Below, piece by piece: positions 6,614 through 28,552 of a stretch of DNA of 64,000 bases. Within the stretch, counting starts at the first letter, position 1, and every line of letters begins with the position of its first letter. The position numbers and the translations under genes were made by a program. This DNA is from Mycolicibacterium sp. MU0050 (GTDB taxonomy: Bacteria > Actinomycetota > Actinomycetes > Mycobacteriales > Mycobacteriaceae), in contig NZ_OY726395.1 in assembly GCF_963378085.1 (NCBI RefSeq), forward strand, positions 4,340,001 through 4,404,000, read 5' to 3'. The notes under the pieces were generated by a model that did no database searches, was not told the origin of the DNA, and saw only the letters and a list, made by a program, of their open reading frames with translations.

Positions 6614-7182
6614 CTCGCCGGCACCCGCCGGTCGGCGGCCGTCTTCGGCACCGTGACGGTGTCGCCGGCCTCGAACTGCCGTGTCCAACAGGCGAACTCG
6701 AGGGTGATGCCGTCCGGGTCCAGGAAGTAGAAGGACCGCACGTAGACCCCGGGGTGCACCTCGCGGGCCACCTGCCACTCGCTCTCGTCGTGATTGAGGA
6801 CCGGACCTACCCGCACCCCCTTGTCCTTGAGCTTGCGTCGGTACTCGTCGAACTTCTCCTCGGGCACGTGGAAAGCGAGGTGATTCATGGTGCTCACCGC
6901 CGACACGATCTCGCCCAGCCCGGGCAGGGCGTCCGGCGAGGAGACCAGGGGCACCCGGTCGGGCGCCTCGGCAAACCAGAAGAACGCCACGCAGGACCCG
7001 CCCCCGGCGTCGAAGAAGAAGTGCTGGCCCATCCCGCCGGGCAGGTCCAGTGACTTGATGAGCGGCATGCCGAGGACCCCGGAGTAGAAGTCCACCGTGC
7101 GTTGCATGTCCGAGCAGACCAGGGCGGTGTGGTGGATGCCGCCCAGTTCGAACTCGGTGTTGGTGTTGTGCGGCTTGATCAT
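6610..7182 (-). CDS. VOC family (glyoxalase/extradiol dioxygenase fold) protein
   Basis: Protein of 190 aa with paired beta-alpha-beta-beta-beta modules of the vicinal oxygen chelate fold. The first metal ligand is likely the His in GGIHHTALVCSDMQRTVDFY (about residue 18). A central His lies in MNHLAFHVPEEKFDEY, and the acidic ligand is the Glu in DPDGITLEFACW. The organisation resembles ring-cleavage dioxygenases and Rv0274-like proteins. The substrate is unknown. It is divergent from the TetR gene at 7241, with 58 bp between and an inverted repeat at 7186-7207 that could serve both genes. Confidence 0.87.
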   Translation of the reverse strand: MIKPHNTNTEFELGGIHHTALVCSDMQRTVDFYSGVLGMPLIKSLDLPGGMGQHFFFDAGGGSCVAFFWFAEAPDRVPLVSSPDALPGLGEIVSAVSTMNHLAFHVPEEKFDEYRRKLKDKGVRVGPVLNHDESEWQVAREVHPGVYVRSFYFLDPDGITLEFACWTRQFEAGDTVTVPKTAADRRVPAS

Positions 7183-7185
7183 AAT

Positions 7186-7207
7186 CTGAATGTAACATCA
7201 GGTTCAG
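7186..7207. promoter_or_regulatory. Candidate TetR operator between VOC and TetR genes
   Basis: An imperfect palindrome with CTGAA/TTCAG ends spans 22 bp. It sits 4 bp upstream of the VOC start codon and 34 bp before the GTG start of the divergent TetR gene, a typical position for an autoregulated operator. The inner bases are only partly symmetric. Confidence 0.4.
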
Positions 7208-7240
7208 TTGTGCCCAAGCAAATCGGCGTGAGGACATTCG

Positions 7241-7849
7241 GTGACCCAACCGACCCGACGGGGTAGGGCGACCCAGGCCGCCATCGACGCGGCGGCCCGC
7301 GCGGTGATCGCCCGAAAGGGCATCCTGGCCGCCACCGTGGCCGACATCGCCGCCGAGGCCGGCCGCTCCACGGCGTCGTTCTACAACTATTACGACTCCA
7401 AGGAAGCCATGGTCCGCGCCTGGGCGCTGCGGTTCCGGGACGAGGCCACCGACCGCGCGCGCGGCGCCACCCGGCACGGCCTGACCGACGCCGAGCGCGT
7501 GCACGAGGCCGCGGCCGCGCACTGGCACACCTACCGGCGCCGGCTCGCGGAGATGATCAGCGTCTCGCAGCTGGCCATGGTGAACGCCGACTTCGCCCGC
7601 CACTGGGAACAGATGTGCGCCATCCCCACCGACTACATCACCGACATGGTCACCCGCGCCCAGCAGCGGGGCTACTGCCCCGACGACGACCCCCGCCTGC
7701 TGGCCCAGGCCATCGTGTCGATGCTCAACCAGTTCTGCTACCTGCAACTGGCCGGCCGACCCGACGGCGCCGCGGACGTCGACGACCAGGCCTGCATCCG
7801 CACGCTGACGAACATCTTCTACCGCGCCATCTTCAGCAAGGAGCCGTGA
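7241..7849 (+). CDS. TetR family transcriptional regulator (Rv0273c-like)
   Basis: Repressor of 202 aa starting at GTG 7241, with AGGA seven bases upstream. The helix-turn-helix is at about residues 27-55 (ATVADIAAEAGRSTASFYNYYDS, in two parts, then KEAMVRAWALRF). The ligand domain is helical and typical in length. Its TGA stop overlaps the ATG of the following alpha/beta hydrolase gene (TGATG), so regulator and enzyme are co-translated. It probably controls itself, the divergent VOC gene, and the hydrolase-dehydrogenase pair downstream. Confidence 0.9.
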   Translation: MTQPTRRGRATQAAIDAAARAVIARKGILAATVADIAAEAGRSTASFYNYYDSKEAMVRAWALRFRDEATDRARGATRHGLTDAERVHEAAAAHWHTYRRRLAEMISVSQLAMVNADFARHWEQMCAIPTDYITDMVTRAQQRGYCPDDDPRLLAQAIVSMLNQFCYLQLAGRPDGAADVDDQACIRTLTNIFYRAIFSKEP

Positions 7850-8934
7850 TGACCACCGAGATTGTCCGCAAGTTCATCGGCATGGAATCCCCCACCGGCG
7901 AACGCCAGGGCGCCGGCGGGCACCCCTGCCAGGGGCTTTATCACCACGCGGCGGGGCAACGCCCCCGCGTCGCGATGATCGCCACGCATTATCAGATCGA
8001 CTTCTCCGAGCATTACCTCGCCGAGTACATGGCCGCCCGCGGCATCGGCTTCCTGGGCTGGAACACCCGGTTCCGCGGCTTCGAGAGCAGCTTCGTCCTG
8101 GATCACGCGCTGGTGGACATCGGCGTCGGGGTGCGCTGGCTGCGCGAGGTCGCCGGGGTGGACACCGTTGTGCTGCTGGGCAATTCCGGCGGCGGTTCGC
8201 TGATGGCGGCCTACCAGGCGCACGCCGCGCACGGCGAGGGTCTGGCCGAACTGCTGCCGGCCGACGCCTACATCGCCAGCGCGGCCCACCCCGGTCGCCC
8301 CGAGGTGTTGACCGCGTGGATGGACGCCGCCGTCGTCGACGAGAACGACCCGGTGGCCACCGACCCCGAACTGGATCTGTTCGACGGCCGGCACCGCCCG
8401 CCGTTCTCGTCGGAGTTCGTGGCCCGCTACCGAGAAGCCCAGATCGCCCGCAACGAGGCCATCACCGACTGGGCCGAGGCCGAACTGCAACGGGTGCGCG
8501 CCGCAGGCTTTTCCGATCGGCCGTTCACGGTGTGCCGGACCTGGGCCGACCCGCGGATGGTCGACCCGACCATCGAACCCACCAACCGCGCCCCCAACCT
8601 CTGCTACGCCGGCGAACCCCGGCAGGCGAACCGCTCGACCCGCGGCATCGCCGCGGCCACCACGCTGCGCAACTGGCTGGGCATGTGGAGCCTGCGGCAT
8701 GCCAAGACCCGCGCCGAACCGCACCTGGCGCGCATCGACTGCCCCGCCCTGGTGATCAACGCCGATCAGGACACCGGCGTTTTCCCGTCCGACGCCGCGC
8801 GCATCCACGACGCGCTGGCCAGCACCGACAAGTCCCGGGCGGCCATCGACACCGACCACTACTTCACGACCCCGGGGGCCCGCGACGAGCAGGCGGATAC
8901 CATCGCCGCATGGATCAGGAAAAGATGGGCTTGA
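7849..8934 (+). CDS. Alpha/beta hydrolase (Rv0272c-like)
   Basis: Hydrolase of 361 aa. The nucleophile elbow is GNSGGGS (G-x-S-x-G, about residues 109-115), preceded by a beta strand VDTVVLLG. A likely acid residue lies in CPALVINADQDTGVFP, and the catalytic His may be in DTDHYFTTPGARDEQ near the C terminus. The true start is ATG 7849, overlapping the TetR stop; an upstream in-frame extension lies inside the TetR gene and is not credible. Its 3' end overlaps the next dehydrogenase gene by about 10 bp. The substrate is unknown; an ester or CoA-linked intermediate is plausible from context. Confidence 0.88.
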   Translation: MTTEIVRKFIGMESPTGERQGAGGHPCQGLYHHAAGQRPRVAMIATHYQIDFSEHYLAEYMAARGIGFLGWNTRFRGFESSFVLDHALVDIGVGVRWLREVAGVDTVVLLGNSGGGSLMAAYQAHAAHGEGLAELLPADAYIASAAHPGRPEVLTAWMDAAVVDENDPVATDPELDLFDGRHRPPFSSEFVARYREAQIARNEAITDWAEAELQRVRAAGFSDRPFTVCRTWADPRMVDPTIEPTNRAPNLCYAGEPRQANRSTRGIAAATTLRNWLGMWSLRHAKTRAEPHLARIDCPALVINADQDTGVFPSDAARIHDALASTDKSRAAIDTDHYFTTPGARDEQADTIAAWIRKRWA

Positions 8935-9899
8935 GGGTCCTCGCACACTTCAAGCCGGGCGAACGCGCGACCGAACGCATCGCCGCCGAATCCGATTGGC
9001 TGGACGTGCGCTGGGTCGCCGAGGACGACGACGAGGCGTTCTACCGGGAACTGCCCGAGGCCGAGGTGCTCTGGCACGTGTTGCGCCCGCTGTCGGGTTC
9101 GGATCTGGAGCAGGCGCCGAAGCTCAAGCTGATCCACAAGCTCGGTGCCGGCGTCAACACCATCGACGTCGAGACCGCAGCCCAGCGCGGCATCGTCGTC
9201 GCCAACATACCCGGCGCCAACGCCGCCTCGGTGGCCGAGTGCACCGTCATGCTGATGCTCGCCGCGCTGCGCCGCCTGCCCGAGCTGGACCGGGCCACCC
9301 GCGCCGGGACCGGCTGGCCGCACGACCCGACCCTGGGTGACCGGATCCGCGACCTCGGCAGCTGCACCGTCGGCCTGGTCGGGTTCGGCAGCGTCGCCAA
9401 ACGCGTCGAGCAGATCCTGCGCTCGATGGGCACCCAGGTCCTGCACACCTCGACCAAGCGCGACGAACACAGCGTCAGCTGGATGACCCTCGACGACCTG
9501 CTGGCCAAGAGCGACATCATCTCCATCCACGCGCCGCTGACCGACGCCACCTCGGGCCTGTTCGACGCCGACAAGCTGGCGAAGATGAAGCCCGGCGCCA
9601 TCCTGGTCAACACCGCGCGCGGCGACATCGTCGACCAGGACGCGCTGGTCGCCGCGCTGCAGTCCGGACAACTGGCCGCCGCCGGCCTCGACGTCTACGC
9701 CGAGGAGCCCGTCGGGGCCGACAACCCGCTGCTGGGCCTGGACAACGTGCTGCTGATGCCGCACGTCAGCTGGTACACCGCCGACACCCTGGACCGCTAC
9801 CTGGACGCGGCGCTGCAGAACTGCCGGCGCCTGCGCGACGGGCAGCCGCCATACTTCGTGGTCGCCGACGCGGCGCGCGACTCGGCCACCACGACCTGA
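8925..9899 (+). CDS. D-isomer-specific 2-hydroxyacid dehydrogenase
   Basis: NAD-dependent dehydrogenase of 324 aa in the D-3-phosphoglycerate dehydrogenase-like superfamily. The Rossmann motif is VGLVGFGSVAKRV (GxGxxx variant, about residues 147-159). The catalytic Arg region is LVNTARGDIVDQDALVAAL, the Glu lies in GAAGLDVYAEEP-like AAAGLDVYAEEP, and the His in NVLLMPHVSWYT. ATG 8925 is chosen because AGGA stands at the right distance before it; ATG 8910 is an alternative. It overlaps the upstream hydrolase gene, so the two are coupled. I recall no gene at this position in the M. tuberculosis Rv0271c-Rv0272c order, so it may be an insertion specific to this lineage. Confidence 0.9.
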   Translation: MGLRVLAHFKPGERATERIAAESDWLDVRWVAEDDDEAFYRELPEAEVLWHVLRPLSGSDLEQAPKLKLIHKLGAGVNTIDVETAAQRGIVVANIPGANAASVAECTVMLMLAALRRLPELDRATRAGTGWPHDPTLGDRIRDLGSCTVGLVGFGSVAKRVEQILRSMGTQVLHTSTKRDEHSVSWMTLDDLLAKSDIISIHAPLTDATSGLFDADKLAKMKPGAILVNTARGDIVDQDALVAALQSGQLAAAGLDVYAEEPVGADNPLLGLDNVLLMPHVSWYTADTLDRYLDAALQNCRRLRDGQPPYFVVADAARDSATTT

Positions 9900-9946
9900 C
9901 TCCCGAGTAAGCTCGTCGCCAGCCGACCGGAGGGAAGGGCAAAGCG

Positions 9947-12157
9947 ATGCCGATCGCAATCAATCCTGAGCACGTAGACCTGGCCGACTCGGTGCGCTCC
10001 CTGGTGGCGCGCGTCGCGCCCGCCGAGGTGCTGCACGAGGCGCTCGAGACACCGATCTCCAACCCGCCGCCGTACTGGAAGGCGGCCGCCGACCAAGGGT
10101 TGCAGGGGCTGCACCTGGCCGAGGAAGTCGGCGGACAGGGCTTCGGCATCCTCGAATTGGCCGTCGTGCTCGCCGAATTCGGCTACGGCGCGGTGCCGGG
10201 ACCGTTCGTGCCGTCGGCGATCGCCAGCGCGCTGATCGCCGCGCACGACCCAGGCGCGGAGATGCTGTCCGGGCTGGCGAGCGGGGAGACGATCGCGGCC
10301 TACGCCATCGACTCCGGTCTGACCGCCACCCGGCAGGGCGACGCCCTGGTGATCCGCGGCGAGGTCCGCGCGGTGCCGGCCGCCGCCCAGGCGTCGGTGC
10401 TGGTGCTGCCGGTCGCCGGCCTGGATTCGACCACCTCCGGCGCCGAGTGGGTGGTCTTCGACGCCGACGCCCTCGAAATCGAACCCGCGCAGAGCATCGA
10501 TCCGCTGCGCCCCGTGGCGCACGTGCGGGCCAACGCCGTCGAGATCGGCGACGACAGGGTGTTGTCGAACCTGAGCCGCTCGGCCGCCCACGCGCTGATG
10601 TCGACCCTGCTGTCCGCCGAGGCCGTCGGCGTGGCACGGTGGGCCACCGACACCGCCTCGGAGTACGCCAAGATCCGCGAACAGTTCGGCCGGCCCATCG
10701 GGCAGTTCCAGGCCGTGAAGCACAAGTGCGCCAACATGATCGCCGTCACCGAGCGGGCCACCGCCGCGGTGTGGGACGCCGCCCGCGCCATCGACGAGGT
10801 CGCCCGCGGGGAGTCCGACCTGGTGACCGCGCACGTCGACTTTGCCGCCGCCGTCGCGGCCACCCTGGCCCCGGCCGCGGCCCAGCACTGCGCCGAGGAC
10901 TGCATCCAGGTGCACGGCGGCATCGGGTTCACCTGGGAGCACGACACCAACGTGTACTACCGCCGCGCGCTGGTGCTCGCGGCGTCGTTCGGCCGCGCCG
11001 CGGACTACCCGCAGCGGGTGGTCGACGCCGCCACCGCCACCGGGCTGCGGGGCATCGAGATCGACCTCGATCCCGACACCGAGAAGCTGCGCGAGGAGAT
11101 CCGCGCGGAGGTCGCCGGCCTGAAAGCGATTGCGCGCGAAGAGCGCAACACCGCGATCGCCGAGGGCGGCTGGGTGCAGCCGCACCTGCCCAAGCCGTGG
11201 GGCCGCGACGCCAGTCCGGTCGAGCAGATCATCATCGCCCAGGAGTTCACCACCGGCCGGGTCAAGCGCCCGCAGATGGGGATCGCGGCCTGGATCATCC
11301 CGTCGATCGTGGCGTTCGGCACCGACGAGCAGAAGCAGCGCTTCCTGCCGCCGACGTTCCGCGGCGAGATGATCTGGTGCCAGCTGTTTTCCGAGCCCGG
11401 GGCCGGCTCCGACCTCGCCAGCCTGACCACCAAGGCCACCAAGGTGGACGGCGGCTGGCGGATCACCGGGCAGAAGATCTGGACCACCGGCGCGCAGTTC
11501 TCGCAGTGGGGCGCCCTGCTGGCCCGCACGGATCCCAGCGCGCCCAAGCACAACGGCATCACCTACTTCCTGCTGGACATGGCCAGCGAGGGCGTGGAGA
11601 TCAAGCCGCTGCGCGAACTGACCGGCAACGCGATGTTCAACACCGTCTTCATCGACGACGTCTTCGTCCCCGACGACATGGTGCTCGGCGAGGTGGACCG
11701 CGGCTGGGAGGTCAGCCGCAACACCCTTACGGCCGAACGGGTTTCGATCGGCAGCAGCGAGCCGCCGTTTTTGCCCAGCCTGGACAAGTTCGTCGAGTTC
11801 CTGGCCGAGGGCCACTTCGACCAGATCGAGCAGAACCGCGCCGGGCAGCTGATCGCCGAGGGCCACGCGGCCAAGCTGCTCAACATGCGCTCCACGCTGT
11901 TGACGCTGGCCGGCGGTGACGCGATGCCGTCGGCGGCGATCTCCAAGCTGCTGTCGATGAAGACCGGCCAGGGGTACGCGGAGTTCGCGGTGGCCTCGTT
12001 CGGCACCGACGGGGTGCTCGGCGACGAGCAGACCCCCCAGGGCATCTGGGCGCAGTACCTGCTGGCCAGCCGGGCGACCACGATCTACGGCGGCACCTCG
12101 GAGGTGCAGTTGAACATCATCGCCGAGCGGCTGCTGGGCCTCCCTCGGGACCCGTAG
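9947..12157 (+). CDS. fadE6: Two-domain acyl-CoA dehydrogenase FadE6
   Basis: Flavoprotein of 736 aa made of two fused acyl-CoA dehydrogenase units, about twice the usual length. The first half (residues 1-365) keeps the C-terminal helical domain with ECIQVHGGIGFTWEHD. The second half (about 370-736) has a full set: LFSEPGAGSDLASLTTKA for FAD and substrate contact, WRITGQKIWTTGAQ, and YGGTSEVQLNIIAERLLG at the end. It would oxidise an acyl-CoA at C2-C3 in fatty acid or sterol-type catabolism. The start ATG 9947 follows GGAGGGAAGGG. The orthologue is Rv0271c by length and neighbours. Confidence 0.92.
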   Translation: MPIAINPEHVDLADSVRSLVARVAPAEVLHEALETPISNPPPYWKAAADQGLQGLHLAEEVGGQGFGILELAVVLAEFGYGAVPGPFVPSAIASALIAAHDPGAEMLSGLASGETIAAYAIDSGLTATRQGDALVIRGEVRAVPAAAQASVLVLPVAGLDSTTSGAEWVVFDADALEIEPAQSIDPLRPVAHVRANAVEIGDDRVLSNLSRSAAHALMSTLLSAEAVGVARWATDTASEYAKIREQFGRPIGQFQAVKHKCANMIAVTERATAAVWDAARAIDEVARGESDLVTAHVDFAAAVAATLAPAAAQHCAEDCIQVHGGIGFTWEHDTNVYYRRALVLAASFGRAADYPQRVVDAATATGLRGIEIDLDPDTEKLREEIRAEVAGLKAIAREERNTAIAEGGWVQPHLPKPWGRDASPVEQIIIAQEFTTGRVKRPQMGIAAWIIPSIVAFGTDEQKQRFLPPTFRGEMIWCQLFSEPGAGSDLASLTTKATKVDGGWRITGQKIWTTGAQFSQWGALLARTDPSAPKHNGITYFLLDMASEGVEIKPLRELTGNAMFNTVFIDDVFVPDDMVLGEVDRGWEVSRNTLTAERVSIGSSEPPFLPSLDKFVEFLAEGHFDQIEQNRAGQLIAEGHAAKLLNMRSTLLTLAGGDAMPSAAISKLLSMKTGQGYAEFAVASFGTDGVLGDEQTPQGIWAQYLLASRATTIYGGTSEVQLNIIAERLLGLPRDP

Positions 12158-12198
12158 GCCGCGCTTTCCCCCGCGGGCAGACGGGTATACCGCCACCC

Positions 12199-20920: not shown

Positions 20921-21355
20921 TCAGCCGGCGGGCTGCTCGGCTGCCTGGCGCGCCATACGTTCCTCGTAGCGGTCGACGAGTTCGCGGAAGCCCAACCGGT
21001 CGTAGCCCGGAATCGGTTGCACACCCCACTCGTCGCGTGCGGTGTCCTTGCCCTCGGCACCCTCGGGCGGCCCCAACGGCGGGTACGGATACTTACATTC
21101 CAGCGCGTCGTCGGAGAACCTGACCTTGAGCAGCTCGCTGCAGATCTGGGTGAGGCTCAACGTCGGGTACCCGTAGTAGACCGCCATGAACGGAAGGGTG
21201 AATGCGCCCTCGATGACCAGCGCGATCAGGCACACCAGGACCGCGCGTTTGATCCACTTGTGCATCCGGGCGTAGTACGGCGTGGTACCCGGCGGCAGGT
21301 CCTCGGCCGGGTCCTTCTCCTCGGCCGACGGCGGGGTCGAAGATGGTGTGGTCAC
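20921..21355 (-). CDS. Single-span membrane protein of the NorQ/NorD-linked module
   Basis: Protein of 144 aa starting at GTG 21355 behind AAGGAG. An acidic, proline-rich N terminus (residues 1-28) is followed by one hydrophobic helix at about residues 38-62 ([20 protein letters not shown] then AVYYG). A region with two cysteines follows ([27 protein letters not shown]), which might form a disulphide outside the membrane. The C-terminal tail is soluble and charged. I recognise no family. It is the last gene of the minus-strand run that begins with the TetR gene at 25324, and lies 34 bp behind the polytopic membrane protein, so it is probably a subunit of the same assembly. Confidence 0.75.
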
Positions 21356-21389
21356 TCTGGTTCTCCTTTGCAGTGCGCCGCAAACACGT

Positions 21390-22085
21390 TCAGTCCGTGA
21401 ATATTTCGCGGTTCACCGTGTGCAGATACGGGATCGCGAGGAAGGGGGTGATGTAGAAGATGTCGTAGAGCCACCAACCGATGACCGGGAACACCACGCC
21501 GGCGAAACGCACGTCCGCGAACATCGTCATGTTCAGGATGTAGACCGGCCAGATGACCACGCCCATCCAGCAGGTGATGATCATCCACTGATGGCCCCAG
21601 CGCTTCATCTGCAAGAAGCCGATGGCCGCCGCGACGCGCATCGAGAACACCGTGAGGATGAAACCGATGACGAAGGCCTTCTCGCCGGGCGCCGCGGCAC
21701 CGCCGACCCACAGTTCGTTGTAATGCCAGAAGTAGCCGGCGTCGAACATGTTGCCCCAGCCGATCATCAGCACCCGGTTGATCAGCGTGTGGTTGCCCAC
21801 CATGTCCAGCGCCCAGCCGAGGCTGTTGAGCATGCCGTCGATCAGCACCAGGTATCCGATGAGGGTGACGATCATCGGCCGCACCGACAGTCCCGCGCGC
21901 TGGGCCTGGCGCTGCAGCCAGACCCCGCGCATGAAGATCGGGAAGCCGATCAGGCCCGGCGCCCACATCCCCATCAGCGCGGCGCCGACGATCATCCACT
22001 TGTCGGCACGTCGCTGCGCCCGCTTCGACTCCTCGTGGTGGTCCTCGAGGCTCACCCCGCCGACAGCGGTCGGCGACGTGCTCAC
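21390..22085 (-). CDS. Polytopic membrane protein of the NorQ/NorD-linked module (copy A)
   Basis: Integral membrane protein of 231 aa with about five or six hydrophobic segments: [20 protein letters not shown] near residue 30, [16 protein letters not shown] near 73, [19 protein letters not shown] near 135, [20 protein letters not shown] near 165, and [20 protein letters not shown] near 200. Polar residues in or near the membrane ([20 protein letters not shown]) could bind a metal or substrate. I cannot name the family. It starts at GTG 22085, overlapping the stop of the 43-aa gene. A close paralogue lies at 25547-26245. It is a candidate catalytic or transport subunit served by the NorQ/NorD pair. 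Confidence 0.85.
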
Positions 22086-22213
22086 AGATACCACCATCCA
22101 CGGTCGAACGACATCCACAGCTGGATGAGGAACATCGTCAGCAGAAAGCCGTAGATGACGACCTGGAAGACGATCAGCGCCTTCTTGCGGTTCTTTTCCT
22201 TCTGGTCGACCAT
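22082..22213 (-). CDS. 43-aa single-span membrane micro-protein
   Basis: ATG 22213 is preceded by AGGAGGGACAC, an excellent ribosome site. The product starts MVDQKEKNRKKALIV with a lysine-rich cytoplasmic head, then one membrane helix (FQVVIYGFLLTMFLIQLWM, about residues 16-34), then SFDRGWWYL. Its TGA overlaps the GTG of the polytopic protein gene, and it begins nine bases after the NorQ stop codon. The basic head before the helix predicts the N terminus inside. The spacing, ribosome site and overlap make it a real gene and a likely small subunit of the membrane complex. Confidence 0.82.
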   Translation of the reverse strand: MVDQKEKNRKKALIVFQVVIYGFLLTMFLIQLWMSFDRGWWYL

Positions 22214-22222
22214 GTGTCCCTC

Positions 22223-23023
22223 CTAGGGTTGAGCCGGGGTATCGGCGGCGAGCAGGCTGGCGGCGGCCACCTCGCGCAGGCCGTCGCTGATGGCGCCGTC
22301 GGTGCTCAGCGGCGCGAGGATGCAGGCCTCCGCGGCCTCCAGTTCGCTCGCACCGGCAGCGATCAGTTGGGCCGCGGTGACGAGCACGCGGGTCGACGGC
22401 GGCTCGAAATGAAAGGCCTCGTCGGCGGTGCGGATGGCGATGGCGCACTGGATAAGTCGTTGCGCGACGGCGAGGTCCACCCCGGTTTCGGAGACCACCG
22501 CCTGGGCCTCTCGTTCCGGTGGCAGGTAGCCCATCGGCAAGGTGACGAAGCGCTGCCGGAACGACGGCTTGAGTTCCTTCAACGAGCTGCGGTAGGCCGG
22601 GTTGTAGGAGCACACCAGCATGAACTCGTCCGGCGCGTGGACCACCTCGTCGGCGCGGTCCAGGTACAGGGCGCGGCGGTGATCGGTCAACGAGTGCAGG
22701 ATGGCCAGCGAGTCGTGCCTGGCCTCGACCACCTCGTCGAGGTAGCAGATGGCCCCGGTCTTGACGGCCCGGGTCAGCGGGCCGTCGGTCCAGACGACGT
22801 CGCCGCCGGTGACCATGAAGCGCCCCACCAGATCCGAGCTGGTCAGGTCGTCGTGGCAACTGATGGTGATGACGGGGCGACGCAGCAGCGTGCCCATGTG
22901 CTCGACGAACCGCGTCTTGCCGCACCCCGTCGGTCCGGTGAGCATCACCGGGATCTTGCGGGTGAAGGCCTGTTCGAACAGTTGGACTTCGTGGCCGTTG
23001 GCGTAGTAGCTGTCGTTGCTCAT
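22223..23023 (-). CDS. norQ: MoxR-type AAA+ ATPase, NorQ/CbbQ family
   Basis: ATPase of 266 aa. Walker A is GPTGCGKT at residues 30-37, and Walker B-like GAICYLDEVVEARHD lies at about 106-120. The NorQ/CbbQ sequence ISCHDDLTSSDLVGRF and the sensor-type CSYNPAYRSSLKELKPSFRQ are present. NorQ/CbbQ proteins work with a VWA partner to remodel or load metal into a target enzyme, for example NO reductase or Rubisco. No norB, norC or Rubisco gene is in the window, so the target here is probably one of the adjacent membrane proteins. It is followed nine bases later by the 43-aa gene and lies 27 bp behind the VWA gene. Confidence 0.9.
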   Translation of the reverse strand: MSNDSYYANGHEVQLFEQAFTRKIPVMLTGPTGCGKTRFVEHMGTLLRRPVITISCHDDLTSSDLVGRFMVTGGDVVWTDGPLTRAVKTGAICYLDEVVEARHDSLAILHSLTDHRRALYLDRADEVVHAPDEFMLVCSYNPAYRSSLKELKPSFRQRFVTLPMGYLPPEREAQAVVSETGVDLAVAQRLIQCAIAIRTADEAFHFEPPSTRVLVTAAQLIAAGASELEAAEACILAPLSTDGAISDGLREVAAASLLAADTPAQP

Positions 23024-23050
23024 GGCGGTGTCGATGTCCTCCTCGGACGG

Positions 23051-24583
23051 TTATGCGGTGACCAATTCGCGATGGACGTGGGCCAGCACCCGGGGTAGTT
23101 CCTCGACCCGCCGAATGCGTTGGGAGCGACGAGGTCCGAAGACCTCCGGCAGCGGGTCGACCCGGGCGGGGCCGACGCCCACGTAGTAGACGGAGACGCC
23201 GGCGTCGTTGGCTTCCTCGACGGCATGCGCGGCGTCCGCCCAGGCGTAGCGCCCCTCGTATCCCTCGTCGGAGATCATCCCGTCCCCGATGATGATGAGC
23301 AGGCGCCGCTCCGAGGGCTGGTCGAGCAGTCGGCTGGTCAGATGCCGGATGGGAGCGCCGAGGCGGGTGTACCCGCCGGTGGACAGGCCCAGGCCGCTGG
23401 GCGGGATGAATCGTGGGTCCGGGAAATCTTTGAGGCAACGGACTTCCACGCGGTGGCGGGTGTTGCCGGTGAACACGAAGATGCCGTGCCGCTCGCGGGC
23501 CCGCTTCATCGCCCGGGACAGGGCGTCGGCGCAGGCCAGCTCCAACCGGAAGACTTGGCCACCGTGCACCCCGAGCGACGAGCTGCCGTCGAGCAGCAGC
23601 GCGGTGCTGACGTCGCGGCTGCTCGGCAGCAGCTCACGGAAGACCCGTGGCTCGGTGGCCTCGCCGGTCCGCAGGTCGACGTAATGGCGCACGTACTGGT
23701 CGATGTCGAGGTCGGAGCCGTCCTCGAGTCGGTTCGTCATGGCGCGGTGGGTGTGCTCCTCGAACCATTTGTGCAGATCGGCCGACGAGGTCGTCGACGC
23801 GCCGATCCGGGCGTCCCGGGCCAGCTCGAGCACCGCGACATGGTCGGGCATGAAGCTCTTCGTCCACTGGTTCCACTCCGGATACGGGATGCCGGGCCGG
23901 TGTTCCGGGGTGACGTCCATGTCGTTGTCCTCGGGCCGGCTCGGCGGCGGCAGGTTCGGGTTGCGCACCCCGCCGTCGCCGCCGACCGGCACCGAATACG
24001 GCCGCGGCATCCGCTTCTCCGATGTGGTCCACGGCATCCGGCCGAACTGTCGGCGCATCTTGTCCAGCATCCCGGCGGGGGCGGTGAACACCGCGGGCAG
24101 CGCACCGAGCAGCGGGTGTGGGCTGATCCCGTCGGGCCCGCGGGCCAGCTCGATGGCCCGGCTCACCATGGCGCGGGCCTCCGTATCCGGGTCGGCGGGC
24201 TCCAACTCCGGTAGCAGCCGGGCGAATTCGGGCATCAAGCCCGGCCAGCGCACGGCGATCCAGCCGAGCGCGACGCCCGCCTCGACGACCGTCAGGGCGC
24301 GCAGCTCGCGGCCGGACAATTCGTTGAGTCGGTACTCGCCCACCCGGTCCTTCGACTCGGCGCACTGCAGAGCGATGCCGCACGTCAGGCTCCGGCGGGT
24401 CCAGTCGGAACCCAGCGGCGGGTAGGGCACATGGACGAACCGGCGCGCCGAGCTGAGGCCGAACGCGCGGTGTTCGCCGGTCACCAGACGCACGCCCTCG
24501 CGGCGCTGCTCGCTGAGCGCCATGGCGGTCAGCGCACAGCTGCGTTCGATGGCCAGGGCCGTCAGGTCGGCGGACTCAGCCAC
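23051..24583 (-). CDS. norD: VWA domain protein, NorD/CbbO family
   Basis: Protein of 510 aa starting at GTG 24583. The C-terminal von Willebrand factor A domain carries the MIDAS metal site D-x-S-x-S in TALLLDGSSSLGVHGGQ (Asp 332). Further VWA features are ERHGIFVFTGNTRHRVEVRC, YTRLGAPIRHLTSRLL and LLIIIGDGMISDEGYEGRY. The N-terminal 300 residues are helical and lack a recognisable enzyme motif. NorD-type proteins are adaptors that bring the AAA+ partner NorQ to its substrate. The next gene upstream is a 35-aa membrane micro-protein six bases away, and NorQ follows downstream. Confidence 0.9.
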   Translation of the reverse strand: MAESADLTALAIERSCALTAMALSEQRREGVRLVTGEHRAFGLSSARRFVHVPYPPLGSDWTRRSLTCGIALQCAESKDRVGEYRLNELSGRELRALTVVEAGVALGWIAVRWPGLMPEFARLLPELEPADPDTEARAMVSRAIELARGPDGISPHPLLGALPAVFTAPAGMLDKMRRQFGRMPWTTSEKRMPRPYSVPVGGDGGVRNPNLPPPSRPEDNDMDVTPEHRPGIPYPEWNQWTKSFMPDHVAVLELARDARIGASTTSSADLHKWFEEHTHRAMTNRLEDGSDLDIDQYVRHYVDLRTGEATEPRVFRELLPSSRDVSTALLLDGSSSLGVHGGQVFRLELACADALSRAMKRARERHGIFVFTGNTRHRVEVRCLKDFPDPRFIPPSGLGLSTGGYTRLGAPIRHLTSRLLDQPSERRLLIIIGDGMISDEGYEGRYAWADAAHAVEEANDAGVSVYYVGVGPARVDPLPEVFGPRRSQRIRRVEELPRVLAHVHRELVTA

Positions 24584-24589
24584 GTCGGC

Positions 24590-24697
24590 TCAGAACGTTC
24601 CGAGGTTGGAGAACATCCAGTACCAGAACCAGATGACCAGCGCGGTGCCGCCCCAGGCACCCACGTACCGAAGTATCTCCCAGACGTATCCCCACAC
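24590..24697 (-). CDS. 35-aa tryptophan-rich membrane micro-protein
   Basis: GTG 24697 is preceded by AAGGAGGTCACACG, a near-perfect ribosome site. The product reads MWGYVWEILRYVGAWGGTAL, then VIWFWYWMFSNLGTF. Six of 35 residues are Trp, and nearly all of it is one membrane helix. It lies 24 bp behind the TetR stop and its TGA is six bases before the NorD start, so it is the first structural gene of the operon. I know no family for it. The ribosome site and the tight packing support a real gene. Confidence 0.78.
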   Translation of the reverse strand: MWGYVWEILRYVGAWGGTALVIWFWYWMFSNLGTF

Positions 24698-24721
24698 CGT
24701 GTGACCTCCTTGTTGACGAAT

Positions 24722-25324
24722 TCATCGGATCTCCAGTCCGCGCAGCGCGGAGGCGACCAGCTTTTCGAGCATCCCGTCGCGGGTGTCGGCGCTCTCTCCT
24801 GCGCTGAGCACCCCGTAGACCCCGAGCAGGAAGAACACCGCGTTGGAGAACGGGTCCACCTCCGGATGCACCGAGCCCTGGGCGCGGGACAGTTCGATCT
24901 CGCGGACCAGCTGGACGATCACCGGATGGTCGGTCCAGTTCTCCGACGCCGGCCGGGACGGCGAGAAGTGCAACGCCACAAGTTCCCTGAAAAGGGGACT
25001 GCCGAACCGGCGTTCGATGCCCTGCACCAACGCCACCACCTCGGCGAGTGCGCCGGCAAGTTCGTGCGGGCCGGCGAGGAACCGCTCGAACTGCGCGGCG
25101 ACCCGCGCTTCCTCCCGCTGTTCCAGTTCCAGCAGGACGTGCTCCTTGGTGGGGAAATGGAAGTAGAAGGTGCCGTGCGCCACGCCCGCGGCCGCCGCGA
25201 TCGAGTGCACCTCGGCATCAGCCATGCCCGAGCGTTTGAACTCGGCGATCGCCGCACCGAGGATCCGTTCCCGCGTCTGCAGACGCTGGACGTCCCGCGC
25301 GGTCGGCTTGACCTGTGCCGTCAT
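24722..25324 (-). CDS. TetR family regulator of the NorQ/NorD-linked operon (copy A)
   Basis: Repressor of 200 aa. The helix-turn-helix is at about residues 40-65 (HSIAAAAGVAHGTFYFHFPT then KEHVLLELEQRE). The ligand domain is helical. It heads a minus-strand run of seven closely spaced genes down to 20921 and is likely autoregulated through the perfect palindrome TGACTTAAGTCA at 25351-25362, 26 bp before its start codon. A paralogue with the same recognition helix (AAAGVAHGTF) is encoded at 26365-26964, and a sister palindrome lies before the second membrane protein gene. Confidence 0.9.
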   Translation of the reverse strand: MTAQVKPTARDVQRLQTRERILGAAIAEFKRSGMADAEVHSIAAAAGVAHGTFYFHFPTKEHVLLELEQREEARVAAQFERFLAGPHELAGALAEVVALVQGIERRFGSPLFRELVALHFSPSRPASENWTDHPVIVQLVREIELSRAQGSVHPEVDPFSNAVFFLLGVYGVLSAGESADTRDGMLEKLVASALRGLEIR

Positions 25325-25350
25325 GATGTGATGTTTCTAGTCCAATGTAC

Positions 25351-25362
25351 TGACTTAAGTCA
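25351..25362. promoter_or_regulatory. TetR operator candidate 1 (perfect palindrome)
   Basis: TGACTTAAGTCA is a perfect 12-bp palindrome 26 bp upstream of the TetR copy A start. It differs at only two central positions from TGACTCTAGTCA at 26252-26263, before the paralogous membrane protein gene. Confidence 0.65.
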
Positions 25363-25456
25363 ATAGATACCGCGGGCATGGTCGGACTGATCTCCTGCTG
25401 AATGGGTTCTACCAGGTTTTATCGAACGCAGCTGTCCCAGCAGAGTGGCACGTCAA

Positions 25457-26364: not shown

Positions 26365-26964
26365 TCAGTTTGGGGCGATGCTGCGCAGCGTGCGCTTCAC
26401 CAGATCGTCGAGCAACTCTTTGCGCATCGGGTCGTTGGTGGTGATCGCCAGCGCGTAGAGGCACAGCAGGAAGAACACCGCACTGTTCATCGAGTTGACC
26501 TCGGGGTCGACCTCACCGCGTTCGCGGGCGCGGTCGATGTGCTCGGCGAGCAACACCACCAGCGAGTGGTCGCCGCCCCCCTCCGCAGGTGGCCTGGTCT
26601 GCGAAAAGTGTAGCGCCAGAAAGTCTTTGAACAGCACCGCACCCAGTCGGCGCTCCAGGCCCAGTACCAGCCGGGCGGCCTCGGTCAGCGCGGCCTCCAG
26701 GTCATGGCCCTTGTCCAGGAACTTGCCGAACTGCTTGGCCATCCGGTCTTCCTCGCGCTTCTCGAGCTCGAGCAGGACATGTTCCTTGGTGGGGAAATGA
26801 AAGAAGAAGGTGCCGTGGGCGACCCCGGCCGCGGCGACGATGGCGCCGACGTCGGCCTCGGCCATGCCCGCTCGTTTGAACTCGGCCACCGCGGCGCCCA
26901 TCAGCCGCTCCCTGGTTTGCAGGCGCTTAGTCTCGCGCGCAGAGGGCCCGTTCGCCACCGCCAT
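26365..26964 (-). CDS. TetR family regulator (copy B, paralogue of 24722-25324)
   Basis: Repressor of 199 aa with helix-turn-helix at about residues 37-62 (GAIVAAAGVAHGTFFFHFPT then KEHVLLELEKRE). Its N-terminal DNA-binding part is nearly the same as that of copy A, and the ligand domain has diverged (ALHFSQTRPPAEGGGDHSLV against ALHFSPSRPASENWTDHPVI). It lies 119 bp upstream of membrane protein copy B on the same strand. A shared recognition helix with a different ligand pocket would let two signals act on one operator type. Confidence 0.9.
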   Translation of the reverse strand: MAVANGPSARETKRLQTRERLMGAAVAEFKRAGMAEADVGAIVAAAGVAHGTFFFHFPTKEHVLLELEKREEDRMAKQFGKFLDKGHDLEAALTEAARLVLGLERRLGAVLFKDFLALHFSQTRPPAEGGGDHSLVVLLAEHIDRARERGEVDPEVNSMNSAVFFLLCLYALAITTNDPMRKELLDDLVKRTLRSIAPN

Positions 26965-27721: not shown

Positions 27722-28552
27722 ATGAGTTCTTTGGCCGGCAAGGTCGCCTTCATCACCGGCGTGGCCCGCGGACAGGGACGCAGTCACGCGCTGCGGCTCG
27801 CGGCCGACGGCGCCGACATCATCGGCGTGGACATCTGCGCCGACATCGCCTCGAACAGTTACCCCCTGGCCAGCCGGGCGGAACTCGACGAGACCATTGA
27901 GCTGGTGGAGGCCCAGGGCGGGAAGATGCTCGGCACCGTGGCCGATGTACGCGACTTCGCGGCGGTGCAGTCCGCGATGGATGTGGGCGTCGCACACTTC
28001 GGGCGCCTCGACATCGTGTGCGCGAACGCCGGGATCGCGCCGACGGCGTTTCGCGAGGTGAGCATCGAGGAGGAACTCGAGATGTGGGCCGATGCCGTCG
28101 ACGTCAACCTCAACGGGGCGTTCCACACAGCCAAGGCCGCCATCCCACATCTGCTGGCCGGGGATCGCGGCGGGGCGATCGTCTTCACCAGCTCAACCGC
28201 CGGTCTGCGCGGCTTCGGCGGCATGCAGGGCGGGGGCCTGGGCTATGCAGCCGCCAAACACGGCATCGTCGGACTGATGCGCACTCTTTCGAATGCGTTG
28301 GCGCCATACAGCATTCGCGTCAACACCGTCCATCCCACCGCGGTCAACACCATGATGGCAGTCAACCCCGCGATGACGGCGTTCCTGGAGGCTTATCCCG
28401 ACGGCGGTCCGCACCTGCAGAACCCGATGCCGGTCGAACTGCTGGAACCGGAGGACATCAGCGCTGCGATCGCCTATCTGGTCTCCGACGCCGCCAAGTA
28501 CGTCACCGGGGTTGCCTTCCCCGTTGACGCCGGGTTCTGCAACAAGCTATGA
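27722..28552 (+). CDS. Mycofactocin-coupled type SDR oxidoreductase
   Basis: Short-chain dehydrogenase of 276 aa. The cofactor motif is TGVARGQGRSHALRLAADGA (TGxxxGxG at residues 12-19) and the active site SSTAGLRG with Y-x-x-x-K in GYAAAKHGIVG. Between beta-2 and beta-3 it has the insertion DICADIASNSYPLASRAELD then ETIELVEAQGG, which marks SDRs with a buried NAD that need mycofactocin for turnover. It would oxidise a secondary alcohol such as a terpene or carveol-type compound. ATG 27722 gives the proper start. It is controlled by the divergent TetR gene. Confidence 0.9.
   Translation: MSSLAGKVAFITGVARGQGRSHALRLAADGADIIGVDICADIASNSYPLASRAELDETIELVEAQGGKMLGTVADVRDFAAVQSAMDVGVAHFGRLDIVCANAGIAPTAFREVSIEEELEMWADAVDVNLNGAFHTAKAAIPHLLAGDRGGAIVFTSSTAGLRGFGGMQGGGLGYAAAKHGIVGLMRTLSNALAPYSIRVNTVHPTAVNTMMAVNPAMTAFLEAYPDGGPHLQNPMPVELLEPEDISAAIAYLVSDAAKYVTGVAFPVDAGFCNKL

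Follow-up and report, generated by a model that had tools for sequence, protein, structure and literature searches.

Which membrane protein does a NorQ/NorD-type motor serve when no nitric oxide reductase is encoded beside it? A handful of clients are known for such motors, and the question is raised by a 64,000-nucleotide stretch of Mycolicibacterium sp. MU0050 (NZ_OY726395.1, positions 4,340,001 to 4,404,000; hereafter the window). Its minus strand carries a run of seven genes, encoding a TetR-family regulator, the micro-protein p35, NorD, NorQ, the micro-protein p43, a polytopic membrane protein (poly) and a single-span protein (sp144). An earlier interpretation of this DNA from its letters alone (the sequence-only reading) had described the run as a membrane module, and all seven open reading frames (ORFs) were recovered where it had placed them. 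The seven genes are real, but the module had been drawn too short, as a second polytopic gene, poly2, and a second TetR gene had been overlooked; in relatives, both are members of the module. Our preferred explanation, held with moderate confidence, is that the locus encodes a membrane enzyme of several different subunits that acts on hydrophobic substrates and depends on its dedicated NorQ/NorD pair for activation.

A NorQ/NorD pair that travels with membrane protein genes

According to its profile matches, the AAA+ protein of the window is a member of the CbbQ/NorQ family, with scores of 123.6 bits for AAA_5 (cut-off 22) and 74.8 bits for CbbQ_C (cut-off 20.6). Its Walker motifs are intact in 93/93 relatives. 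The identity proposed for its partner NorD stands on a complete metal ion-dependent adhesion site (MIDAS), but the Pfam VWA match ended 0.2 bits short of the cut-off (23.6 vs 23.8 bits). The MIDAS pieces (DxSxS-T-D) were recovered in 92/92 relatives by three regular expressions; a stricter expression, GGYTR, retained 50/92 of the NorDs, the remainder carrying, where inspected, another residue before GYTR. In cytochrome c-dependent nitric oxide reductase (cNOR), the NorD MIDAS and the NorQ Walker B motif are required for an active enzyme (PMC9976466), and a twisting model for iron insertion has been proposed for its maturation (PMC9976466, PMC13036017).

Conservation was examined in 80 relatives picked by similarity to the polytopic protein, a selection that favours complete cassettes, and in a sample of 60 genomes of the genus that is free of this bias. 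In 79/80 relatives, the six structural genes whose co-occurrence the sequence-only reading had proposed as a check were all found in the same order, p35-NorD-NorQ-p43-poly-sp144, the exception (L013) being a contig end. The same 79/80 relatives have two polytopic genes, and poly2 is preceded by a tetR2-type gene in the majority of the 80. Other genera of the bacterial family carry a version with one polytopic gene and the remaining order unchanged, with a TetR gene at six of these loci (L119, L120, L121, L122, L128 and L129) and without a TetR match at two (L123 and L127). At L126 and L130, polytopic genes flank p43, one on each side. A distant actinobacterial genome, G367 (locus L131), has a p35-like ORF together with a polytopic protein, a NorD and a NorQ of 37%, 35% and 49% identity, respectively, and small ORFs of 86 and 83 amino acids (aa) that resemble p43 and sp144 by eye only. 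Because their genes travel with this NorQ/NorD pair, the membrane and micro-proteins are likely its clients, as had been suggested earlier.

The polytopic family was found in 30/60 genomes of the genus, in 27/251 of the bacterial family (a count that includes a weak partial match in G104, probably spurious), in 26/298 of the order and in 9/396 of the phylum, where the one genome outside the bacterial family is G367. Protein-level matches include a Nevskiaceae metagenome bin, and the single plasmid record found for the polytopic protein is a plasmid of M. branderi (34% identity). Besides, in G655 (contig C62, 207411-212475) both polytopic copies were matched in two pieces with the same alignment breakpoint.

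Some copies stand apart from the motor. Within the 60-genome sample, 7/68 polytopic places had no NorQ within 6 kb; two of these are short pieces cut off by a contig end, and the remaining five (one of them also ending before the C-terminus) are spread over four genomes with a NorQ-adjacent polytopic gene elsewhere. Loci L133 and L134 each hold an extra p35-p43-poly-sp144 copy with no adjacent NorQ/NorD match, each genome having two more polytopic genes elsewhere. This four-gene membrane set thus looks like the functional unit, on which NorQ/NorD may act in trans.

NorQ lineages follow two membrane protein families

In the 60 genomes of the genus, the NorQ C-terminal family was matched 96 times. 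A polytopic gene lies 172-265 bp from 30 of these matches, and every genome with the polytopic family (30/30) has a NorQ. At least 63/96 have instead an AveC-like gene (PF17198) within 4 kb, at distances of 383-3184 bp, where chance would give about 0.007 such neighbours per NorQ. The expectation that membrane genes accompany the pair holds for NorQs on the window's side of the tree described below, 29/29 of which adjoin a polytopic gene; the majority of NorQs in the genus have AveC-like neighbours (p35, p43 and the 144-aa gene were not looked for at those loci). Three of the 96, among the matches listed, have neither neighbour: the match in G085 is short and contains a stop codon, that in G099 lies in a 114-aa open frame, and in G656 the neighbouring genes resemble COX3/COX4-type proteins by eye. 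At L233 (7945-9672), a neither-class mycobacterial NorQ adjoins two small membrane proteins that resemble COX3/COX4 (NorE/NorF-like) by eye, in a setting of P450-type and enoyl-CoA hydratase-like genes.

A tree of 92/96 NorQs separated 29 polytopic-linked sequences from 62 AveC-linked ones and one other, by a branch with ultrafast bootstrap (UFBoot)/SH-aLRT support of 100/100. None of 500 label shuffles gave a value as low as the observed split. Left out of the tree were two neither-class matches without a called NorQ gene, one AveC-linked NorQ of 120 aa and one polytopic-linked NorQ of 163 aa. In a smaller tree of 18 chosen polytopic-linked loci, the window and 30 NorQ-centred loci, a composition by which the split is partly built in, G367 fell on the polytopic side with a long branch.

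The MU0050 genome itself has three NorQs, namely that of the module and two in clusters that include AveC-like genes scoring 220 and 347.8 bits against a cut-off of 26.6. At one of these clusters (L140, C1 5078000-5097900, locus 7919-11644), AveC, NorQ and NorD genes abut or overlap; at the other (L139, C1 4746000-4765900, locus 7034-12165), another gene stands between AveC and NorQ. The AveC-like genes within 4 kb of at least 63/96 NorQs in the genus suggest a second client family for NorQ/NorD. A common origin of the two membrane families was considered and rejected, as hhalign gave probabilities of 0.3% and 1.8% and the window proteins have no Pfam match; PF17198 was also absent from the Pfam families listed for 81 polytopic relatives. 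A nor operon at the module was likewise rejected. The genome has just two COX1-family genes; these lie at 1.19 and 3.22 Mb, each more than 1 Mb from all NorQs, so that no norB-type (COX1 family) gene lies within 1 Mb of any of them, in agreement with the absence of a nitric oxide reductase noted by the sequence-only reading.

Fold and invariant residues of the polytopic family

Evidence on the fold and family of poly was drawn from its paralogue poly2 and from relatives. An AlphaFold model of poly2 based on an 81-row alignment reached a predicted local distance difference test (pLDDT) score of 86.4 and a predicted template modelling (pTM) score of 0.83; an earlier structure model from 37 close homologues (pLDDT 73.9) had given no useful structural match. 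A Foldseek search of the confident model against the PDB returned nothing with E < 0.001. Using VIA-align, the top fold matches were the emopamil-binding protein (EBP, a sterol isomerase) and the sigma-2 receptor (TMEM97), both of the EXPERA superfamily, with residues 1-40 of the model falling outside the EBP structural alignment.

At the profile level, neither poly nor poly2 matched the Pfam EBP family (PF05241) at E up to 1. Matches at E up to 0.5 were obtained for 18/81 relatives, with a best E of 8.1e-5, and ten relatives scanned singly gave at best 19.3 bits against a cut-off of 25.7. The family profile found no relative among PDB sequences, its one match (E 1.7) being a chance match. Comparison of the family with EBP by hhalign gave a probability below 1%, in a test that is insensitive, as two Pfam-recognised EXPERA groups reach 29% with each other. 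UniProt entries of close polytopic homologues are named "Emopamil-binding protein".

Eleven residues are invariant in 81/81 sequences (poly2 numbering): D29, R70, D84, D95, D116, Y119, E136, K137, Y183, R194 and W206. In low-scoring alignments (probability below 1%), D116-x-x-Y119 and E136 stand in register with D108, Y111 and E122 of EBP, residues that are among the important ones in alanine scanning of that enzyme (PMC4263179). By spacing alone, the position of EBP E80, termed a conserved acidic position in the same study (PMC4263179), corresponds to N88, which is Asn in 80/81, with D84 four residues earlier at the position of EBP H76.

Small proteins and layout of the module

The genes for the small proteins recur in related loci, p35 in 95/96, p43 in 94/96 and sp144 in 93/96. 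For the first, second and third codon positions, respectively, p35 had substitution rates of 0.17, 0.11 and 0.34, and p43 of 0.20, 0.11 and 0.34, third-position differences being about three times second-position ones in both. From this pattern and their conservation in related loci, p35 and p43 are judged to be conserved protein-coding genes. The strong ribosome sites reported before them are present, with the Shine-Dalgarno sequences AAGGAGG before the p35 GTG and AGGAGG before the p43 ATG. The description of both as membrane peptides is borne out for p43, in which a Kyte-Doolittle scan placed one span, as in sp144, but not directly for p35, in which the scan gave no span above threshold; p35 is probably a membrane protein by its Trp/Phe-rich stretch. 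None of poly, sp144, p35 and p43 has a Pfam or NCBIfam family over cut-off.

The genes are tightly packed (Table 1). Successive intergenic distances from the first TetR gene through p35, NorD, NorQ, p43 and poly to sp144 are 24, 6, 27, 9, -4 and 34 bp, matching the gaps or overlaps below 35 bp described before (6-34 bp and one 4-bp overlap). The reading frame of poly is open further upstream from a TTG; the GTG start was adopted, and searches used poly minus its first residue. Identity between poly and poly2 rises from 58% over the first half to 85% over the second, and their C-terminal halves may be kept alike by gene conversion. No third polytopic copy was found in the MU0050 genome. The first TetR protein shows similarity to the ScbR model, scoring 65.9 bits where the cut-off is 150.

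Table 1. Features of the NorQ/NorD module and its surroundings, in positions of the window.
Feature	Position	Strand	Remarks
sp144, single-span protein, 144 aa	20921..21355	-	conserved two-Cys domain CSEL.K.R.SDD..EC..PYP and GFRELV
poly, EXPERA-like polytopic membrane protein, 231 aa	21390..22085	-	GTG start; 4-bp overlap with p43 stop
p43, single-span micro-protein, 43 aa	22082..22213	-	ATG start
NorQ/CbbQ-type AAA+ ATPase, 266 aa	22223..23023	-	Walker A GPTGCGKT, Walker B LDEV
NorD-like VWA-domain protein, 510 aa	23051..24583	-	complete MIDAS motif DGSSS, GGYTRLG, GDG
p35, Trp-rich probable membrane micro-protein, 35 aa	24590..24697	-	GTG start; C-terminal end FWYW...N.GTF
First TetR-family regulator, 200 aa	24722..25324	-	
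Imperfect palindrome, 24 bp, candidate operator	25345..25368	n/a	20-44 bp upstream of first TetR gene
poly2, EXPERA-like polytopic membrane protein, 232 aa	25547..26245	-	71% identity to poly
Second TetR-family regulator	26365..26964	-	TetR_N over cut-off; upstream of poly2
Mycofactocin-coupled SDR	27722..28552	+	TIGR03971, 355 bits vs cut-off 300; possible pathway partner

Genomic neighbourhood

A DAP_DH_C-type dehydrogenase recurs as a neighbour in 56 of the 96 related loci and a small protein without Pfam match in 48, whereas two P450 families recur in 42 and 19. A same-strand gene follows sp144 within 30 bp in 50/74 loci with a called next gene; in the window, the next gene is convergent. 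At L208 (G659), sp144 overlaps a P450-type gene, which is followed by the recurrent dehydrogenase, then the recurrent small protein, another P450-type gene, an EXPERA protein and an SDR-like (short-chain dehydrogenase/reductase) gene. L133 has P450, CoA-transferase, AMP-ligase, mycofactocin-coupled SDR and AveC-like genes around it, and L134 has acyl-CoA dehydrogenase, enoyl-CoA hydratase and acyl-CoA ligase genes. The copy on the M. branderi plasmid neighbours a GMC oxidoreductase, an aldehyde dehydrogenase, acyl-CoA enzymes and a mycofactocin-coupled SDR; L131 neighbours MlaD-domain (mce-type) genes and a P450. These surroundings point to a role in which hydrophobic compounds are oxidised and broken down.

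The link to the nearby mycofactocin-type SDR put forward by the sequence-only reading turned out weak. The MU0050 genome has 14 mycofactocin-coupled SDRs (TIGR03971) over cut-off, one such SDR is no more than 10 kb away from a polytopic gene in 3/14 genomes inspected (chance about 0.05 per locus) and is also found near the copy on one plasmid, and G367 has no SDR over the mycofactocin-coupled cut-off. Separately, the EXPERA protein of L208 (6781-7335, 184 aa), between the P450-type and SDR-like genes, is recognised by Pfam, which among the 96 loci was otherwise the case solely at L075.

Proposed mechanism and alternatives

The heteromeric enzyme favoured here would be composed of poly and poly2, as paralogous EXPERA-like subunits, with p35, p43 and sp144 as small subunits. 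Using its MIDAS site, NorD would grip this membrane complex, which the ATP-driven NorQ hexamer would then open so that it could be finished. In its simplest form, the finishing step would be the insertion of a metal or another cofactor, as for nitric oxide reductase. Once completed, the enzyme would modify a substrate of steroid, isoprenoid or fatty-acid type, alongside P450s, dehydrogenases and acyl-CoA enzymes. The sequence-only reading had proposed a metal-dependent membrane oxidoreductase; the fold match points to a sterol-isomerase-like protein. A metal dependence is plausible, and the invariant carboxylates D84, D95, D116 and E136 could be metal ligands; in view of the motor's known work, we slightly prefer metal or cofactor insertion to metal-free assembly. 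Two points weigh against the metal step: the 81 relatives have no invariant histidine, and we know of no metal requirement in the sterol-isomerase-like fold class to which EBP belongs.

An unlikely but substantial alternative is a metal-free acid-base enzyme, such as a sterol, steroid or terpenoid isomerase or dehydratase, which NorQ/NorD would remodel or assemble with no metal inserted. It is consistent with the EBP-like fold, with the sub-threshold EBP profile matches, with the register of D116-x-x-Y119 and E136 in the low-scoring alignments, and with invariant residues that are chiefly carboxylates, Tyr and Trp rather than His. However, EBP E80 and H76 are replaced, by spacing, with Asn and Asp, which argues that the chemistry is not simply that of EBP, and the studied NorQ/NorD pair inserts iron (PMC9976466, PMC13036017).

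An improbable third explanation is that the complex is a lipid transporter, sensor or scaffold, as sigma-2/TMEM97 may be, with its state controlled by NorQ/NorD. The sigma-2 receptor is indeed among the top fold matches and the distant L131 adjoins MlaD-domain genes, but the recurrent P450, SDR, acyl-CoA dehydrogenase and acyl-CoA ligase neighbours better fit a pathway enzyme, and many of the invariant residues are charged. Service to an unlinked client such as a respiratory oxidase, with linkage reflecting co-inheritance only, would accommodate the seven NorQ-less polytopic places (at least three of them assembly-shortened), but is very improbable given a linkage kept across genera and in G367, a NorQ tree that splits exactly by linked membrane family, the distance of the sole two COX1-family genes and the presence of NorQ in all polytopic-family genomes.

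Relation to known systems and implications

The module resembles the NorQ/NorD part of norCBQDEF in having a CbbQ/NorQ AAA+ protein with intact Walker motifs, a VWA partner with intact MIDAS and an operon-linked, probable membrane client, whereas its linked genes are EXPERA-like and micro-protein genes and no norB-type gene is nearby. The EXPERA superfamily provided the best structural matches, and in low-scoring alignment the invariant D-x-x-Y and following Glu fall in register with important EBP residues; on the other side, the window proteins lack a match to its Pfam profile, and the two paralogues come with a NorQ/NorD motor as well as three small proteins. The AveC-like clusters also combine a polytopic membrane protein with NorQ and NorD, but by sequence their membrane proteins could not be related to the polytopic family, and their NorQs lie on the opposite side of the tree.

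Published work has noted that Mycobacterium and Nocardia contain PF05241 (PMC9903846) and that Mycobacterium sp. UM_CSW has homologues of EBP (PMC4818103). These may belong to the present family or be another EXPERA protein, and the passages concerned mention no NorQ/NorD, micro-proteins or cassette. In the titles and abstract beginnings of open-licence papers, no link of NorQ/NorD with EXPERA-like or AveC-like proteins was found.

To our knowledge, there is no biochemistry of the polytopic or AveC-like families in these organisms. Our analysis suggests that the NorQ/NorD motor also serves an uncharacterised lipid-modifying enzyme in mycobacteria and their relatives. A more tentative proposal, possible though doubtful, is that NorQ/NorD matures a new class of multi-subunit, metal-dependent EXPERA-type enzymes, which would hydroxylate, desaturate or oxidise steroid- or terpenoid-like lipids, and that a parallel clade of the motor does the same for AveC-like proteins; if true, "spirocyclase" and "emopamil-binding protein" would be misnomers for two motor-matured families of membrane metalloenzymes. 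In one genus, at least 93 of 96 NorQ loci in 60 genomes are tied to two polytopic membrane families. If the polytopic and AveC-like proteins are clients, such membrane proteins may be inactive when produced alone, the two conserved micro-proteins would be worth including in a reconstitution, and the motors would flag two classes of membrane enzymes of mycobacterial lipid metabolism that are as yet unexplored.

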